This document shows, piece after piece, positions 96 to 7,206 of a stretch of DNA of 7,302 nt. Location: contig JAGLYR010000032.1 of the NCBI GenBank assembly GCA_023132135.1, forward strand, positions 1-7,302, read 5' to 3'. Each line of letters starts with the position of its first letter. Positions within the stretch are counted from its first letter, which is position 1. The notes under the pieces were generated by a model. That model had not been told where the DNA came from. It saw nothing but the letters and a program-made list of their open reading frames with translations, and searched no databases. Source of the DNA: Candidatus Eiseniibacteriota bacterium. GTDB taxonomy: Bacteria; Arandabacterota; Arandabacteria; JAGLYR01. Both the position numbers and the translations under genes were made by a program.

Positions 96-659
96 CTAGC
101 CTTCTCTGCCCCGCCTTGCTCCGCGATGAGCGGTCAGCGCCTCCGGCTCGAAATCCTCTTCATCAATAACAATGGCGCCGGTGGAGCTCCTCTTCAAACT
201 CGCGATTCCCGGATGCTCCCTCTCCAGATCCTCCAGGAGGATGGACTGGCGCTTCACCGTCTTCAGCAGGCGCTCATTCTCCTCCATGAGATCCTTGTGC
301 TCCAGCGCCTGCCGGATGGTGATTGCGAGTTCCACCTCGTTACAGGGTTTCATCAGGAATCGATAGATCCGGCCCTCGTTGATCGCGCTCACCGCGGCTT
401 CCAGGCTCGCCTGCCCCGTCAGCACAATGCGGATGGTTTCCGGATAGATGCGGTAGACCTCGGCGAGGAATTCGGAGCCCGACATGACGGGCATTCTCTC
501 ATCGGAAACGACAACGTCCACCTTCTCGCGCGCCAGCACCGCAAGGGCCTCCCTCGCCGAACCCGTTGTCAGAATCTCGTAGGGCTCCCTGCGAAGGGCG
601 CGCTTCAACCCTTCCGTCACATGGCTCTCGTCGTCGACCAGCAGTACCCTGTGTCCCAT
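96..659 (-). CDS. Single-domain response regulator with coiled-coil tail
   Basis: Last gene, 187 residues, ATG start. The receiver (1-120) has D9-D10-E11, phospho-acceptor D53 in SDERMP, T81 and K104 in MKPC. It shares the AINEGRIYRFLMKPC signature with the receiver of the preceding gene, its closest relative here. Beyond it lies a coiled coil (about 122-148, with ENERLLKTVKRQSILLEDLE), then EREHPGI (146-152) and an acidic tail containing GAIVIDEEDFEPEA. I recall similar PGI plus acidic tails on other stand-alone receivers, so the tail may be a conserved docking or dimerisation element; that is inference. No enzymatic or DNA-binding output is present, so it may be a phosphate shuttle or sink, or act by protein contact. 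It sits 10 bases after the preceding stop, with a near-perfect Shine-Dalgarno sharing bases with that stop codon. Confidence 0.93.
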   Translation of the reverse strand: MGHRVLLVDDESHVTEGLKRALRREPYEILTTGSAREALAVLAREKVDVVVSDERMPVMSGSEFLAEVYRIYPETIRIVLTGQASLEAAVSAINEGRIYRFLMKPCNEVELAITIRQALEHKDLMEENERLLKTVKRQSILLEDLEREHPGIASLKRSSTGAIVIDEEDFEPEALTAHRGARRGREG

Positions 660-665
660 GACTTG

Positions 666-671
666 CCTCCT
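666..671 (-). promoter_or_regulatory. Ribosome binding site of the small receiver gene, shared with the upstream stop
   Basis: AGGAGG on the minus strand lies 6 bases before the ATG at 659. Its first two bases are also the last two bases of the TAG stop (672-670) of the preceding gene, so terminating ribosomes stop on this site. Confidence 0.9.
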
Positions 672-1842
672 ATGTCGCCGCAGGCGTCTCCGCTTCTTCC
701 ATCTCGGGCATCTGCACCAGGATCGGTTCCCTGATTCCCGATCTCCCGGCGAAACCCTTGATTCTTTCGATGAGGGCCTGGCTGACTTCCTGGCCCCTTG
801 TCATCAGCAGCATGTCGCTTCCGGTCCGGACTTCCTCGGCGAGAATCATGCCCGGTGTGAGCTCCCAGATACTCACCCCCCTGATCTTCCGACTCTCCGC
901 CTCGACCCCGACAACGGACTCCAGCGCTGTGAGAGCCTCGGGATCATACCACCCGGACCGCCCGCGAAGCCGCGCCAGCGCTTTGTCTCTTGTGATCCCC
1001 GTCGCCTCAAGCATGTCGAAATCGAGCACCACCTTGAGCACTCTGGCGCCCAGGGGAATCCTTTCGCCGCGACCGGAGTCCTGCCGGGACTGCGTGCAGT
1101 CGAACCGCTCCTCCTGGCAGGCGACGATCTCGGCCACCTCTTCCATCCGGGGTATGTGGCTCAACAGGTCTGAGGCGAGAGCAGGATGCTTCCGGAAAAG
1201 CTCGGCCTCTTCCCCGGCAAGATCTCCCCCCCTGTAGAGTTTCTGCAGCGCTCTCTCGGGAAGGATGACACACCCGATCTGCGACAGCATCGCAGCTGTT
1301 TCGAGACGCCACAGATCCGGGACACCCAGGTGTTGACCAATCCGGCGCGCGTAGCGCTTGATCCGCGAGGACCGTCCGAACGCCTCGGGATTGACCAGCG
1401 CGAGGATTTCCGTGAGTACCTTGATACTGCCGCTCAGGGTCTTCTCCAGGAGCTCGCGCTCTGCTGTGACAAGCCGGTATTGCTCAATCCCGAGGTTGAG
1501 GACCTTGGTCAGGACCTCTGTGGGACACGGCTTGGTGAGGAATCGGAAGATGCATCCCTCGTTGATGGCTTCGATCGCCGTTTCGAGATCCGCATTCCCC
1601 GTGAGCATAATCCGGACACTGTCCGAATGACTTTCCCGGACCTCGGAGAGAAACTGGATCCCGTCCATCCCCGGCATCCGCAGGTCGGAAACAACCACCG
1701 CAAATGGTCCGGCGTCTCTCACGGCTTCCAGACCGGCCCGGCCGCTTGCGGCCGTTGTGACCTGATACTGCTTCCTCAGCTGGCGCCTGAAGCTTGTCAG
1801 GATGTTCTCATCGTCATCAACAAAGAGGATCCTATCAGGCAT
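670..1842 (-). CDS. REC plus degenerate HD-GYP-like domain response regulator
   Basis: Fourth gene, 390 residues, ATG start. The receiver (1-122) has D9-D10, phospho-acceptor D53 in SDLRMP, T81 and K104 in TKPC, and carries the AINEGCIFRFLTKPC signature often seen in RpfG-like receivers. Residues about 139-312 align by eye to an HD-GYP domain, but the canonical LLHDIGK is MLSQIGC (185-191), the HHE motif is C242-Q243-E244, the GSGYP loop is replaced by CTQSRQDSG (249-257), and the VADxxDAL aspartate is L273. Only H219 of the usual ligands remains, so cyclic-di-GMP phosphodiesterase activity is unlikely. A C-terminal module (about 323-385) contains LTPGMILAEEVRT and a GQEVSQALIERI segment, as found in related regulators. 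A Shine-Dalgarno at 1849-1854 lies inside the end of the preceding gene, which overlaps by 8 bases. The role is probably as a phosphorylation-switched binding protein. Confidence 0.92.
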   Translation of the reverse strand: MPDRILFVDDDENILTSFRRQLRKQYQVTTAASGRAGLEAVRDAGPFAVVVSDLRMPGMDGIQFLSEVRESHSDSVRIMLTGNADLETAIEAINEGCIFRFLTKPCPTEVLTKVLNLGIEQYRLVTAERELLEKTLSGSIKVLTEILALVNPEAFGRSSRIKRYARRIGQHLGVPDLWRLETAAMLSQIGCVILPERALQKLYRGGDLAGEEAELFRKHPALASDLLSHIPRMEEVAEIVACQEERFDCTQSRQDSGRGERIPLGARVLKVVLDFDMLEATGITRDKALARLRGRSGWYDPEALTALESVVGVEAESRKIRGVSIWELTPGMILAEEVRTGSDMLLMTRGQEVSQALIERIKGFAGRSGIREPILVQMPEMEEAETPAAT

Positions 1843-3043
1843 TCGTGACTCCTTGTTCTACCGCCTCCAGACAGCCGTCCCGCCACAGCGGGATCCGCTG
1901 CGTCAATCCCATCTCGGAGATGTATGGCTCGTCCAGCGCACCGCCGTCCTCGTCCGCCTCAATCTCATTCAGAAGCGCGTTGGCCGCGTGCACCGCCGTG
2001 AGGGGCCCGAACTCCCGGACCGGGCAATCCGCCGGGCGGTGGTGGAACGCGATGGCCTCCACGATCGTATCCGGCAGTCCCCACAAACCCATCAGGTAAG
2101 CCCCGATCTCCGCGTGGGTGGTTCCGAAGCTCTCCAGCTCCGCCCGGTGTACGCGCATGCCGCTTTTCTTTGCCAGGAGGAGGATTGCTCCGTAGCGGTC
2201 CGGTAACCTGGAGGCCAGTACCAGTTTTCCCGAGTCGTGCAACAGTCCGGCCATGAAGGCGTGGTCTGCAGACGCCTGGGGCAGATTCTCACCCGTGGCA
2301 ATGGCCTTGGCCGCAACGCCCGCTGCCATGCTGTGGTTCCACAGGTGGTCCAGCAATCCGCCGGGGAAATGCTTCTGGTCGAACTCCGAAAAAATCTGGA
2401 CCGAGAGAACCAGGCCCCGGACGTTTTCGATTCCAAGAAGGCCGGCGGCCTGTGCCGGGCTGGACACATGCTCGCACAGGCCGAAAAAGGCGGAGTTGAC
2501 CATCTGGAGGATCTTGGCGGACATTCCGACATCCCGGGAGACTATCTCGCCGACCCTCCGGGTCGATGCCTCCGGTGATTGCAGCTCTTCCATCAGTTCA
2601 GCGTAAAGGGACGGCAAACTGGGAAGGGTATCCATCCGGGACACAATGCCCTTGAGGGATTCGTTCTCCAGGAGGTCCCGCAGAGCGCACGCCCGGGCCA
2701 CGGTCGCCTTCAGTACATCCGCGTTGCAGGGTTTGGAAAGGTACTGGTGGGCCGTCCGCACCGACTCCATGATCAATTCCTTATCGGAGTGGCCCGACAG
2801 GACAATCCGCACCGTCCTGGGGTATTCCCGCGCCACCCGGCTGAGCAACCGGGCCCCGTCCATTCCGGGCATCCGCATGTCGCTCACGACGACGTCGCAG
2901 GGCTCCGAGCCCAGAATATCCAGAGCCTGCTCTCCACCCTCCGTGAACAACATGTCCCACTCGCGACGCATGGGCCGGAGCATTCTCCTCAAACCCTCGA
3001 GCACGTTCGGCTCATCATCCACGAACAAGATTCGTCTCTTCAC
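1835..3043 (-). CDS. REC-HDOD response regulator
   Basis: Third gene, 402 residues, starting at GTG. This start is required to include the first receiver strand MKRRILFVDD. The receiver (1-122) has D9-D10, phospho-acceptor D55 in SDMRMP, S83 and K104 in SKPC. After a helical linker, an HDOD domain (about 138-345) begins with LPSLPSLYAELMEEL and includes the typical VNSAFFG segment. Unusually for HDOD proteins, many of which lack metal ligands, it keeps an HD-like set: H237 (LWNHS), H269-D270 (GLLHDSGK), H310 and H334-H335. HDOD regulators are known mainly as non-enzymatic signalling outputs in motility, biofilm and stress control; whether this one binds metal is inference. The tail after about 350 is of unknown role. 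It overlaps the preceding kinase by 29 bases and the following gene by 8 bases, consistent with a direct phosphotransfer target of the operon kinases. Confidence 0.94.
   Translation of the reverse strand: MKRRILFVDDEPNVLEGLRRMLRPMRREWDMLFTEGGEQALDILGSEPCDVVVSDMRMPGMDGARLLSRVAREYPRTVRIVLSGHSDKELIMESVRTAHQYLSKPCNADVLKATVARACALRDLLENESLKGIVSRMDTLPSLPSLYAELMEELQSPEASTRRVGEIVSRDVGMSAKILQMVNSAFFGLCEHVSSPAQAAGLLGIENVRGLVLSVQIFSEFDQKHFPGGLLDHLWNHSMAAGVAAKAIATGENLPQASADHAFMAGLLHDSGKLVLASRLPDRYGAILLLAKKSGMRVHRAELESFGTTHAEIGAYLMGLWGLPDTIVEAIAFHHRPADCPVREFGPLTAVHAANALLNEIEADEDGGALDEPYISEMGLTQRIPLWRDGCLEAVEQGVTNA
1849..1854 (-). promoter_or_regulatory. Ribosome binding site of the degenerate HD-GYP gene
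   Basis: AAGGAG on the minus strand lies 6 bases before the ATG at 1842, inside the final codons of the REC-HDOD gene. It supports independent or coupled initiation across the 8-base overlap. Confidence 0.85.
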
Positions 3044-5273
3044 GCTGCTCCGCCTTCACCTGCTCCGTCTTCCCACCAAGGGGAAGCCGGATGACAAATG
3101 TCGTTCCTCTGCCCGTTTCCGTCTCGAACTGGAGCGTGCCCCCGTGTTTCTGGACAATCACAGAGCGGCACACGGCCAGCCCCTGTCCCGTCCCCTTCCC
3201 CACCTCCTTGGTCGTGAAAAACGGGTCGAAAACCCGGGATCGGATTTCTTCGGGAATCCCCGTTCCGGTGTCCGATATCCTGATCTCCGCCTCATTTCCC
3301 ACCAGGGTCGTGCTCAGGGTGATCCGGCCCTTCTCCGACGCCCCGGACTCCGCAGATCCAGCAATCGCGTGCGCGGCGTTGATGATCAGATTCAAGATGA
3401 CCTGGTTGAACTCACCCGGCAGGCACGGCACAAGGGGCAAGCTCTTGTCCAACTCCATCTTCATATCCGCCACGTATTTCCATTCGTTCCGCGCTACCGT
3501 CGCAGTGCTCTCGATTGCCTTGTTGACGTCCGTCGGCACGTGCCCGTCCGTACCCGGGTGTGAGAACTCCTTCATGGCTCTCACGATGTGCGCGACGCGG
3601 TCAATCCCTTCCAGGGCCTGGCTGATGGCTCTCGGGATTTCCTCCGTGAGGTACTCCACGTCCGCGTCTTCGGCCAGGCTCTCCATCTCCTGAATGAGAC
3701 CCTCGGACTTTTCCCCGGCCTTGACGGCTTTGACCAGTTGATCACCCTTCGCCAGAAGTGTTTCCAGATCTCTGAACGCCTCGTCGAGGAAGCGCACGTT
3801 GTCACCAACGTACTGTGTCGGTGTGTTGATTTCGTGGGCAATGCCGGCCGCCAGCTGGCCGATGGATTCCAGCTTCTGGGACTGGACAATCTGGTGCTCG
3901 CGCGCCCTGCTCTCTGCGATGTCAGGGCGGGGAGTCTCTTCCGCCTTCTCCTGCTCAAGAGTGACCCTGCGGAGCTGCCCATTCAGCCTCGCCAGCTCGG
4001 CCGCCTGCTGCTCGACCCTTGCCGCCAGTTCATTGTTGGCCCGCGCCAGGGCAGCAGGGGGCGCGGAAACCCCGTCTTCATCGACGGGCCTGCTCGCGGG
4101 CGCGGGGCGCTCCTCTGCAGTTTCCCCGGCGCCGCAGGCGGGCAGGCAGACCGAGAAAACCGTCCCCACACCCAGGCTGCTCTCGACCGCGACCTCCCCC
4201 CCATGATCCCGGACAATTCGCCGGACAATGGACAGCCCCAGCCCGGTTCCTCCCTCCAAACCCCGGGTTGTGTAGAGGGGTTTGAAAATGCGTTCCATAA
4301 TCTGCGGGTCAATTCCTCTTCCACTGTCAGCCACGCGCAGCTCCACACACGGGCCCGGACGCACGGTGCCGCCGCCGGGGATGGCGTCTCCCTCTGGTTC
4401 GATGTCCCCGAGAGAAATCTCGACCGCCCCTCCGCGGCTCACAGCTTGAAGAGCGTTGACCCCCAGGTTCATCACGACCTGCCGGATCTGGCCCGCATCG
4501 GCCTCGACCAGCCGGCCCGTTGTTTCTGAATCCGACCATCTCACTTCCACACCCCTGGGAGCCGAAGCCCTCAGGAGCCCGATGCAATCGTCAACGATTT
4601 TCCCAAGATCGCAGGCGGCTCGCTCCCCGGTCTCCCCCTGGCTGAGGGCCACGACCTGCCGCACCAGGGTTCTCGCGTGATCGCAGGACTTCTGGATAGT
4701 TTGCACCTTTTCCCGGGCCTTGTCGTTCGTGTCCAGGTAGCAGGCCAGCAGGTCACTGCTGCCGAGGATGATCGCCAGGATGTTGTTGATGTCGTGGGCA
4801 ACCCCCGCGGCCAGGGTTCCGACCATCTCCATCTTCTGGCTCTGAAGGAGTTGCTGTTCCAGAAGCAGGTTCTGTTGCAGGAGCTCATCCCGGCTGGATT
4901 TAACGCGCAGGGCATTGCTGAGCCGGGCGACCAGGTCTTCCTGCGCCACGGGCTTGTTCAGCAGATCGACGGCCCCGAGGTTGAGCGCCCGTCGTTTCAG
5001 GTCCTGGTCTTCGAGACCCGTGAGGACAACGACTTCAATGTCCGACAGCTCCGGACGGGCCTTCATGTCAGCCAGCAGATCAAGCCCGTTCTTGCCGGGC
5101 ATCATCACATCCAGAACGGCCGCATCGAAAGGTTTTTTGCCAAGAAGGTCCATGGCCTCGGCGGCACTGGTCGCATACTCCAACTCCCAAAGCCCCGAGA
5201 CATCCCGGAGCATTCTCCTGACGCCGTTCAGGACTCTTGAGTCGTCATCTACGAACAAGATCCGTCGTTTCAT
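3015..5273 (-). CDS. REC-kinase-kinase: receiver fused to two complete histidine kinase cores
   Basis: Second gene, 752 residues, ATG start. A receiver (1-122; D9-D10, phospho-acceptor D55, T85, K107 in NKP) is followed by a short coiled coil and a first kinase core. That core has H-box AAGVAHDINNILAIILG with H160, N-box N269/N273, D-box D316-S-G-R-G, PLYTTR and G-box GGTGLGLS (341-348), and ends near 379. A Pro/Ala-rich and then coiled-coil linker (about 380-460) joins a second core: AGIAHEINTPTQYVGDN with H480, N-box N628/N632, D-box D668-T-G-T-G, DPFFTTK and G-box GKGTGQGLA (692-700). Both cores keep every catalytic box, so both look active. No PAS, membrane or Hpt domain is seen. The second core closely matches that of the preceding gene, which suggests duplication and fusion. 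The Shine-Dalgarno is weak (purine-rich stretch only), so translation is probably coupled to the upstream gene through the 29-base overlap. Confidence 0.95.
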   Translation of the reverse strand: MKRRILFVDDDSRVLNGVRRMLRDVSGLWELEYATSAAEAMDLLGKKPFDAAVLDVMMPGKNGLDLLADMKARPELSDIEVVVLTGLEDQDLKRRALNLGAVDLLNKPVAQEDLVARLSNALRVKSSRDELLQQNLLLEQQLLQSQKMEMVGTLAAGVAHDINNILAIILGSSDLLACYLDTNDKAREKVQTIQKSCDHARTLVRQVVALSQGETGERAACDLGKIVDDCIGLLRASAPRGVEVRWSDSETTGRLVEADAGQIRQVVMNLGVNALQAVSRGGAVEISLGDIEPEGDAIPGGGTVRPGPCVELRVADSGRGIDPQIMERIFKPLYTTRGLEGGTGLGLSIVRRIVRDHGGEVAVESSLGVGTVFSVCLPACGAGETAEERPAPASRPVDEDGVSAPPAALARANNELAARVEQQAAELARLNGQLRRVTLEQEKAEETPRPDIAESRAREHQIVQSQKLESIGQLAAGIAHEINTPTQYVGDNVRFLDEAFRDLETLLAKGDQLVKAVKAGEKSEGLIQEMESLAEDADVEYLTEEIPRAISQALEGIDRVAHIVRAMKEFSHPGTDGHVPTDVNKAIESTATVARNEWKYVADMKMELDKSLPLVPCLPGEFNQVILNLIINAAHAIAGSAESGASEKGRITLSTTLVGNEAEIRISDTGTGIPEEIRSRVFDPFFTTKEVGKGTGQGLAVCRSVIVQKHGGTLQFETETGRGTTFVIRLPLGGKTEQVKAEQREETNLVRG

Positions 5274-6942
5274 GGGAACTCTCTGCTTCCCTTTCTTCGC
5301 CGCCGTCGAGAGGCAGCCGGATGATGAAGGTTGCGCCTTTTCCTTCCTCGGTTTCCAAACTCAGAGTACCCCTGTGCTTGTCCACGATCACTGAGCGGGC
5401 AATGGCCAGCCCCTGGCCCGACCCCTTGCCCACTTCCTTGGTCGTGAAGAACGGGTTGAAGACCCGGGACTGGACCTCCTCGGGAATCCCACCCCCCGTG
5501 TCGGCGACCCGCACTTCCACCCAATCCCCATCCTGACGCGTCTCAATGACAATCTCGCCCTTCGCCTCGGGATTCTCGCCCAGGAACTCGTCGATCGCCT
5601 GGGCGGCATTCACAACCAGGTTCAGAATCACCTGGTTGAACTCTCCGGGCATGCAGGGCACCGGCGGCAACGAGGGATCCAGTTTCAGATCGAGATCCGC
5701 CACGTACTTCCACTCGTTCCGGGCCACGGTCACCGTACTCTCGATGGCCTTGTTGATGTCCGTGGCCTGCATTCCCTCACCTCCGGGGTGGGAGAATTCC
5801 TTCATCGCCCGCACAATCCTGGCAACCCGCCCAATTCCATCCAGTGTCTGCTGGAAAGCGCGGGGCGCTTCTTCCAGCAGGTAGTCGAGATCCGTGTCTT
5901 CCAGTACGCTCTCGGCTCGCTCGATCCGCTCCGCTGGAACATCTCCGGACTTCGCCGCATCGAGTACTCCCCGCAGTTCCTCCAGGACCCGGCACAGGCC
6001 CTCGAAGGCTTCTTGCAGAAAGCGGGTGTTGTCACCCACGTATTGGGTGGGGGTGTTGATCTCGTGGGCGATGCCCGCGGCCATCTGGCCGATGGATTCC
6101 AGCTTTTGGGCCTGTATCAGCTGGCTCTCGAGGACCCTCTTCTCCGTGATATCCTGAAGCACTCCCACTGTGCGATAGATTTCGCCTTCGTCGTTCCTGA
6201 CGGCAAATCCCCTCGCCAGGATCCAGCGGACGGAACCGTCGGGTCTGTTGATCCTGAACTCCGCGCGCAACTTCTCGCCGGTCCTGAGGTACTCCTCGAA
6301 CGCACGTTCGAATCCTCCCCTGTCATCCCTGTGGAGACTCTCCCAGAGGACTTCCTCGTCTGCGTACACTTCCTCCGGCCTGCGTCCCCAGATCTTCTCG
6401 AACGCCGGGCTCAGGTAGTAGATCCCCCGGAACTCCCCCCCTCCTCCCACCCAGAAGACATCCTCCACAGTATCTGCAATCTGGCGGAACCGCTCTTCGC
6501 TCTCCCGCAGTGCCGCCGTCCGCTCCTCTACGATCTGCTCCAGATTCTCCTGATGGTGGCGCTTCTCAATCATGAGCTTGCGGCGATGGAGTACGGCGGC
6601 AACATTGATCAGCACCTCCTCCACCCCGAAGGGTTTCACAATGTAGCCGTACACGCCCATCTCCAGCGCGGCCTCGATCATCTCCGGCTTGTTCCTCACA
6701 CTCACAAGAACTGCGGCGGTTTCCTCGTACGTGTCGAGGACAAAGCGGACCAGGTCCAGGCCGGACTCGCCGGGCATGTTGATATCCGAGAGGACAAGAT
6801 CGAACGATTCCCCGGCCAGGCGTTCTCGCGCCCGCTCCGCGTTCTCCGCTTCGACACACGAATGCCCTCTCTCCTCGAGAATATCCTTGAGCAACCGCCG
6901 GATCGCCTGTTCGTCATCGACTATGAGAATCCTACCCTGCAT
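5245..6942 (-). CDS. REC-PAS-histidine kinase (cytosolic two-component sensor kinase, HEINTP type)
   Basis: First gene of the operon, 565 residues from the chosen ATG. An N-terminal receiver (about 1-120) has the acidic pair D9-D10, phospho-acceptor D53 in SDINMP, switch residue S81 and K103 in KPF. A helical coiled-coil linker (about 121-150) leads into a PAS/PAC sensor domain (about 150-270, ending in a typical LQDITEKR motif). The kinase core follows: H-box AGIAHEINTPTQYVGDN with phospho-acceptor H293, N-box around N441/N445, D-box D481-T-G-G-G, F-box NPFFTTK and G-box GKGSGQGLA (505-513). There are no membrane segments, so the PAS domain would sense an internal cue. The start at 6942 is set by a strong Shine-Dalgarno 7 bases upstream. 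An in-frame extension to 7203 runs through palindromic non-coding DNA and is rejected. The 3' end overlaps the next gene by 29 bases. The domain assignment is secure; ligand and partners are unknown. Confidence 0.95.
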   Translation of the reverse strand: MQGRILIVDDEQAIRRLLKDILEERGHSCVEAENAERARERLAGESFDLVLSDINMPGESGLDLVRFVLDTYEETAAVLVSVRNKPEMIEAALEMGVYGYIVKPFGVEEVLINVAAVLHRRKLMIEKRHHQENLEQIVEERTAALRESEERFRQIADTVEDVFWVGGGGEFRGIYYLSPAFEKIWGRRPEEVYADEEVLWESLHRDDRGGFERAFEEYLRTGEKLRAEFRINRPDGSVRWILARGFAVRNDEGEIYRTVGVLQDITEKRVLESQLIQAQKLESIGQMAAGIAHEINTPTQYVGDNTRFLQEAFEGLCRVLEELRGVLDAAKSGDVPAERIERAESVLEDTDLDYLLEEAPRAFQQTLDGIGRVARIVRAMKEFSHPGGEGMQATDINKAIESTVTVARNEWKYVADLDLKLDPSLPPVPCMPGEFNQVILNLVVNAAQAIDEFLGENPEAKGEIVIETRQDGDWVEVRVADTGGGIPEEVQSRVFNPFFTTKEVGKGSGQGLAIARSVIVDKHRGTLSLETEEGKGATFIIRLPLDGGEEREAESSHETTDLVRR

Positions 6943-6949
6943 GAGCGTT

Positions 6950-6956
6950 ACCTCCC
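6950..6956 (-). promoter_or_regulatory. Ribosome binding site of the REC-PAS-kinase
   Basis: GGGAGGT on the minus strand lies 7 bases before the ATG at 6942. This decides the start: the alternative in-frame ATG at 7203 would add 87 residues encoded by hairpin-rich DNA before the first receiver strand. Confidence 0.88.
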
Positions 6957-6974
6957 ATATTGAAATTCGACCCG

Positions 6975-6987
6975 GAGGAACATCCTC
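6975..6987. promoter_or_regulatory. Small dyad close to the first start codon
   Basis: GAGGA (6975-6979) and TCCTC (6983-6987) form a 5-bp dyad with a 3-base centre, about 33 bases upstream of the start at 6942. It could be a small operator half-site pair or a leader hairpin. It is short enough to be chance. Confidence 0.25.
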
Positions 6988-7050
6988 TGAAGCGGATTCT
7001 CGGCAAAAAGGCGACGAGGCGAGTGCGAGAGTGGGCGAGGGGGCAAGTGC

Positions 7051-7073
7051 GCGACAGGGATGGGCGTTGTCGC
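7051..7073. repeat. Inverted repeat (6-bp stem)
   Basis: GCGACA (7051-7056) pairs with TGTCGC (7068-7073) around an 11-base loop. It is the innermost member of the hairpin cluster, about 110 bases upstream of the first start codon. It may be chance in GC-rich DNA. Confidence 0.4.
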
Positions 7074-7080
7074 TCTGTCC

Positions 7081-7109
7081 CCCCGGGTTCCGCTTCGCTT
7101 CACCCGGGG
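7081..7109. repeat. GC-rich hairpin (8-bp stem, 13-base loop)
   Basis: CCCCGGGT (7081-7088) pairs perfectly with ACCCGGGG (7102-7109). The 13-base loop contains the tandem pattern CGCTTCGCTTC. It is part of the palindrome cluster upstream of the operon; no T-run follows on either strand. Confidence 0.65.
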
Positions 7110-7122
7110 CTAACACTGAGCC

Positions 7123-7137
7123 GCCCCCTCCGGGGGC
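7123..7137. repeat. GC-rich hairpin (6-bp stem, 3-base loop)
   Basis: GCCCCC (7123-7128) pairs with GGGGGC (7132-7137) around TCC. On the plus strand it is followed by only three T residues before AAG, so it is at best a weak terminator in that direction. On the minus strand it is preceded by AAA and followed by GGC, which is not terminator-like. It belongs to the same cluster of structured repeats. Confidence 0.55.
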
Positions 7138-7169
7138 TTTAAGTGCCCTTTTCCAAGGTCCCTCGATGC

Positions 7170-7189
7170 GGACGGCGTGGAAGCCGTCC
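7170..7189. repeat. Short inverted repeat (7-bp stem)
   Basis: GGACGGC (7170-7176) pairs with GCCGTCC (7183-7189) around a 6-base loop. No T-run follows. From memory, similar GGACGGC...GCCGTCC hairpins recur in intergenic DNA of some PVC-group genomes; that is not checked here. Confidence 0.65.
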
Positions 7190-7206
7190 CTCCAGCCTGC
7201 CATTGT

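Follow-up and report, generated by a model that had tools for sequence, protein, structure and literature searches.

Why does one bacterial protein carry two complete and different histidine kinase cores, and what might one core do for the other? In two-component networks, signaling from one kinase to another has mostly been inferred where the kinases are separate proteins, and gene B, the gene studied here, is a compact test case for the control of one kinase core by another. It lies in a window of 7,302 bases that makes up an entire contig (C246) of a 3.4-Mb draft genome in 345 contigs, evidently a metagenome-assembled one, from a phylum represented by 8 genomes in the set that we searched. 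Judged by its sequence and its relatives, gene B unites in one chain a Rec-controlled kinase of the LvrB type (REC-K1) and, fused to its C terminus, a second kinase (K2) of the HEINTP type found in its own operon.

Gene B is one reading frame with two intact kinase cores

Gene B is encoded on the minus strand (3015..5273), starts with ATG, and specifies 752 amino acids, in the order REC, K1 core, coiled linker, and K2 core. The REC domain (residues 3-118, minus strand 4920..5267) carries the phospho-acceptor aspartate D55 (codon 5111-5109). It is followed, on the same strand, by a K1 core of the HDINN type in a Rec-HK (LvrB-like) arrangement (residues 138-380, 4134..4862), with H160 at codon 4796-4794; by the linker (residues 381-458, 3900..4133); and by a K2 core of the HEINTP type (residues 459-733, 3075..3899), with H480 at codon 3836-3834. 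The original prediction, which described a 752-residue protein with a REC domain, an HDINN core, and an HEINTP core, is confirmed as one open reading frame, and every residue that it named is correct (H160, N273, D316, and G341-G346 in K1; H480, N632, D668, and G692-G698 in K2), so that the catalytic boxes are present and their residues intact in both cores. Its reading of two distinct, intact cores stands, but it overlooked the strand, which is the minus one, the plus strand at 3015-5273 being interrupted by stops. It also overlooked that the first half is a Rec-controlled kinase that elsewhere has its own gene in the same operon slot, and that K2 is of the same type as the kinase of the neighboring gene A.

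Pfam recognized one Response_reg, one HisKA (152-216), and two HATPase_c domains in gene B, the last two scoring 83.7 and 96.1 bits in one common open frame (cut-off, 26.4). The phosphoacceptor domain of K2 matches HisKA at 22.8 bits, below the cut-off of 26.9, and falls within the large, well-conserved HEINTP family. Because a single polypeptide holds both transmitters together with a REC domain, gene B qualifies as a two-transmitter hybrid kinase. The two halves were aligned and modeled separately, because whole-protein alignment dragged K1 proteins onto K2. The N-terminal half was modeled as REC-DHp-CA (mean pLDDT, 78.0) and the K2 half as DHp-CA (84.7). The domain search detected none in the linker, in keeping with the prediction that no sensor domain separates the cores; in the model, residues 382-405 are poorly ordered and of low confidence, and a helix with a heptad pattern follows (406-445).

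A frameshift or an assembly join near residues 380-460 would have undone this picture, and we looked for one. There is no in-frame ATG, GTG, or TTG between codons 370 and 492, so that K2 can be produced only as part of the gene B protein. The linker has no in-frame stop, the two remaining frames are closed, and the pattern of GC by codon position runs unbroken through residues 380-455. Together with the helical linker model, these features make a join artefact improbable, and gene B is unlikely to be a chance reading frame or an obvious assembly join.

The operon around gene B recurs across several phyla

Five genes follow one another on the minus strand in the order A, B, C, D, E, tightly packed or overlapping. 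Gene A (5245..7203) encodes a REC-PAS-K2 kinase of 652 amino acids as listed, although its start may lie further in. Gene C (1835..3043; 402 amino acids, GTG start) encodes a REC-HDOD protein, gene D (670..1842; 390 amino acids) an HD-GYP-like REC-HD_5 protein, and gene E (96..659; 187 amino acids) a stand-alone REC domain. Genes A and B overlap by 29 nucleotides (5245-5273), as do genes B and C (3015-3043), and the final codons of genes A and B overprint the initial codons of whichever REC gene follows. The tails of both proteins read LVR(R/G); that of an unfused pair in another genome (L155) is similar, VIRR.

An operon of an HEINTP (K2) kinase, in some cases a REC-K1 protein, a REC-HDOD protein, and a REC-HD_5 protein recurs across several phyla; loci with K2, REC-HDOD, and REC-HD_5 include L032, L035, L038, L042, L046, L137, L164, L165, L166, and L168. 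In these operons (L032, L035, L042, L137, and L164 among others), the neighbors and their order are as in the window, but K2 has a gene to itself, as does any REC-K1 that is present, whereas the two are fused in gene B. A limited literature search found no description of an operon of HEINTP kinase, REC-HDOD, and REC-pseudo-HD-GYP, and gene B draws attention to a widespread and apparently undescribed operon. Other operons of the same family have two kinases (L040 4408-8342, L051 1773-5215, L055 5131-8366, L138 410-4481, and L139 5733-8951), in some a divergent K2 with a weak-REC-K2 protein and in others two adjacent K2 kinases.

In gene D, the metal-binding HD pair is replaced by SQ ("MLSQIG"), and SQ-type REC-HD_5 genes also occur at L137 2672-3841, L164 3537-4733, and L165 9452-10651. 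Among the HD_5 genes scored that adjoin REC-HDOD, 13 of 20 have SQ and 2 of 20 have HD, which suggests that the third regulator of the operon is usually a pseudo-enzyme; in other contexts, HD is found in 7 of 20 and SQ in 5 of 20. The SQ-type REC-HD_5 protein beside REC-HDOD is therefore likely a conserved pseudo-phosphodiesterase.

Unfused counterparts of the N-terminal half occupy the same slot

Five genomes of two other phyla have a stand-alone REC-K1 gene in the same slot, between the K2 kinase and REC-HDOD. The encoded proteins are 381-402 amino acids long (about 396 as listed for G873), and their local identity to the N-terminal half of gene B is 46% in G100 (L137), 42% in G863 (L164), 41% in G905 (L165), and 40% in both G906 (L166) and G873 (L168). 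In a nine-row alignment, REC-K1 proteins are 39-44% identical to the gene B half, and the best full-length matches in 395 genomes of another phylum reach about 36%. G100 has an additional K2 gene, likewise unfused, so that its parts list equals that of the window except that REC-K1 and the second K2 are not joined. Pairs of a K2 gene followed by a REC-K1 gene also occur in L155, L019, L023, L105, and L076, loci that were chosen for their similarity to gene B, which biases the count of such pairs. From these gene orders, stand-alone REC-K1 is, on the evidence of sequence, a recurrent optional component of the K2/REC-K1/REC-HDOD/REC-HD_5 operon.

No fused REC-K1-K2 homologue was found in 386 family-spread genomes, in 395 genomes of a large phylum and 132 of another, in the 8 genomes of the source phylum, or in 80 loci of named genomes, and no plasmid record covered 80% of gene B. 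Among 250 kinase reading frames of the fetched loci, only gene B and its re-fetched copies have two ATPase domains.

The N-terminal half resembles the Rec-controlled kinase LvrB

LvrB heads the list of fold matches to the REC-K1 model. The resemblance to LvrB is distant (E value, 1.6e-26), and TM-scores stay under 0.4 when the model is taken as a whole, perhaps because the domains hinge. The receiver aspartate and the histidine are 105 residues apart in gene B, in five unfused relatives (those of G100, G561, G698, G863, and G869), and likewise in LvrB (D56, H161); the spacing is 101 in L168 and 118 in the more distant L056. The knee residues E149 and G152 of gene B align with E150 and G153 of LvrB, and an alignment of nine REC-K1 proteins shows no variation at D55, E149, G152, H160, N273, D316, or the glycines of the G boxes. 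In the REC domain of gene B, L104 stands three residues ahead of K107, and the aromatic residue of the usual Y-T switch is lacking.

Gene B thus has what marks a Rec-controlled histidine kinase, an N-terminal REC domain directly before DHp-CA with complete boxes, and it also keeps the LvrB register, with a helical REC-DHp link, the spacing of 105, and the conserved knee glutamate. A protein of the LvrB type consists of REC-DHp-CA only; since a second core continues after CA in gene B, we regard it as a variant and not as a plain member, and it scores 223.8 bits against NCBIfam NF047466 (hybrid_RR_LvrB), under the curated cut-off of 500. LvrB is phosphorylated by LvrA, a kinase encoded beside it, and phosphorylation of its REC domain leads to formation of a coiled coil, which frees the catalytic domain so that the histidine autophosphorylates (PMC13269768, PMC5863495). 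Sequence and predicted fold lead us to conclude that the N-terminal half of gene B resembles such a kinase.

The K2 half is of the same kinase type as gene A

The C-terminal half has the hallmarks of the HEINTP (K2) family, namely, a DHp domain with HEINTPxQYVGDN and a long insert, a G2 box of GxGTGQGLA, and an adjoining REC-HDOD gene. With the K2 model, Foldseek returned only generic kinases and LvrB. The K2 core of gene B is 62% identical to the core of gene A. Their docking helices match almost residue for residue, and K2 is therefore likely to have the same receivers as gene A as its clients. The original prediction had put forward, as candidate roles, that the two cores feed different receivers or form pseudo-heterodimers within one chain. 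Between the two cores, dN is 0.32 and dS is 1.5 (near saturation), which indicates purifying constraint on K2.

At first sight, the 2,230-nt in-register repeats of the window suggest a tandem duplication. A recent origin of K2 as a tandem duplicate of the gene A core was rejected, because other K2 cores are equally close or closer (68% identity to that of L117). A quick tree of K2 cores parts A from B, and a careful one unites them weakly (87/42). Nor are the 29-nucleotide overlaps proof of duplication, since the unfused pair in L155 overlaps similarly (26 nucleotides from coordinates).

A proposed coupling of a receiver-gated kinase to the kinase of the operon

Because the fusion links a Rec-controlled kinase with a kinase of the type at work in the same operon, it is Rosetta-stone evidence for cooperation between REC-K1 and K2 where related operons encode them separately. 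The best overall explanation, to which we give an even chance of being right, is a fusion origin with a receiver-gated K1 coupled to a K2 that serves the regulators of the operon. It starts from an intact reading frame, two complete cores, a conserved operon, and unfused counterparts, all of them observed, and all of its phosphotransfer steps are borrowed from LvrA/LvrB and TodS. In this model, D55 would be phosphorylated by another kinase, probably the K2 kinase of gene A, going by gene order. The helix between REC and K1 would then close as in LvrB, releasing the K1 catalytic domain and allowing H160 to autophosphorylate. The state of K1 would be passed to K2 through the coil at 406-445, by phosphotransfer from H160 via a receiver to H480, or by both. 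Finally, K2 would determine how far the receivers in C (HDOD), D (pseudo HD-GYP), and E are phosphorylated. In this way, the gene B protein would tie a receiver-gated kinase, rigidly and in a 1:1 ratio, to the kinase acting on the output regulators. More tentatively, and with some doubt on our part, K1 may have K2 of the same chain as its direct client; REC phosphorylation would switch K1, and K1 would drive or veto K2 in a kinase cascade or four-step relay with the order R-T-T.

A phosphorelay like that of TodS, acting in cis or between the chains of a dimer, would instead run from H160 of K1 to D55 of REC, on to H480 of K2, and then to external receivers, with K2 acting as both phosphotransfer module and autokinase. 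Gene B together with C, D, and E supplies all four relay elements, and TodS needs His190, Asp500, and His760, all three, to signal to TodT (PMC4861429, PMC3018481). We nevertheless consider this route unlikely: the REC domain of gene B is N terminal and not placed between the cores, the stand-alone REC-K1 relatives have a REC domain with no second core in cis, and in the LvrB paradigm REC is the input of K1.

Less probable still is that one core is effectively silent, either with K2 working and REC-K1 serving as a structural or inhibitory input or with K1 working and K2 serving as a phosphatase or as a dimerization partner of gene A. Pseudo-transmitters do exist, such as the second transmitter of the Red pathway of Myxococcus, which is apparently unable to autophosphorylate (PMC3018481), and the K2 helices of genes A and B are similar enough for mixed dimers to be conceivable. 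Both cores of gene B, however, retain every catalytic residue, and the invariance of the K1 boxes extends to all nine aligned REC-K1 proteins. An assembly or sequencing artefact that fused two adjacent genes could be suspected in a metagenome-assembled contig whose fusion has no homologue and whose parts are separate elsewhere, but it is very improbable given the coding continuity of the linker and the want of a start for a separate K2, and because the order in G100 is K2 and then REC-K1, so that loss of a stop between those genes cannot yield REC-K1-K2.

Comparison with known two-core kinases and with LvrB

Two-core hybrid kinases are known. In the collections that we searched, no other protein had the order REC-HK-HK with a first half of the LvrB type. 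Of the 20,354 transmitter proteins in a 2010 survey, 53 had two transmitters, and 33 of these 53 had a single receiver (PMC3018481); these 33 share with gene B two transmitters and one receiver per chain, and the survey text gives no domain order for them. That two-core kinases are uncommon, as had been predicted from the gene itself, is upheld by these counts and by the solitary position of gene B among the 250 kinase reading frames, although the prediction overlooked that there is precedent for such a kinase with both cores active, namely, TodS of Pseudomonas putida, which has two autokinase domains (PMC4861429, PMC3018481). TodS and gene B are alike in being soluble and in having one REC domain and two histidine kinase cores per protein. 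They differ in arrangement, since TodS is PAS-HK-REC-PAS-HK, the PAS1-HK1-REC-PAS2-HK2 order of its family, whereas in gene B REC comes first, the two cores follow, and there is no PAS or other sensor domain; TodS acts on catabolic genes through TodT.

The closer parallel for the first half is LvrB of Leptospira (PDB 8vc9), which shares with gene B the order REC-DHp-CA, the QSQKxExxG knee, and a position after a kinase gene. Unlike LvrB, gene B carries a second complete kinase core past K1, and overall identity between the two is low. Their outputs differ as well: that of LvrB is an anti-sigma factor, while those of the gene B operon are receivers with HDOD and HD-GYP-like domains.
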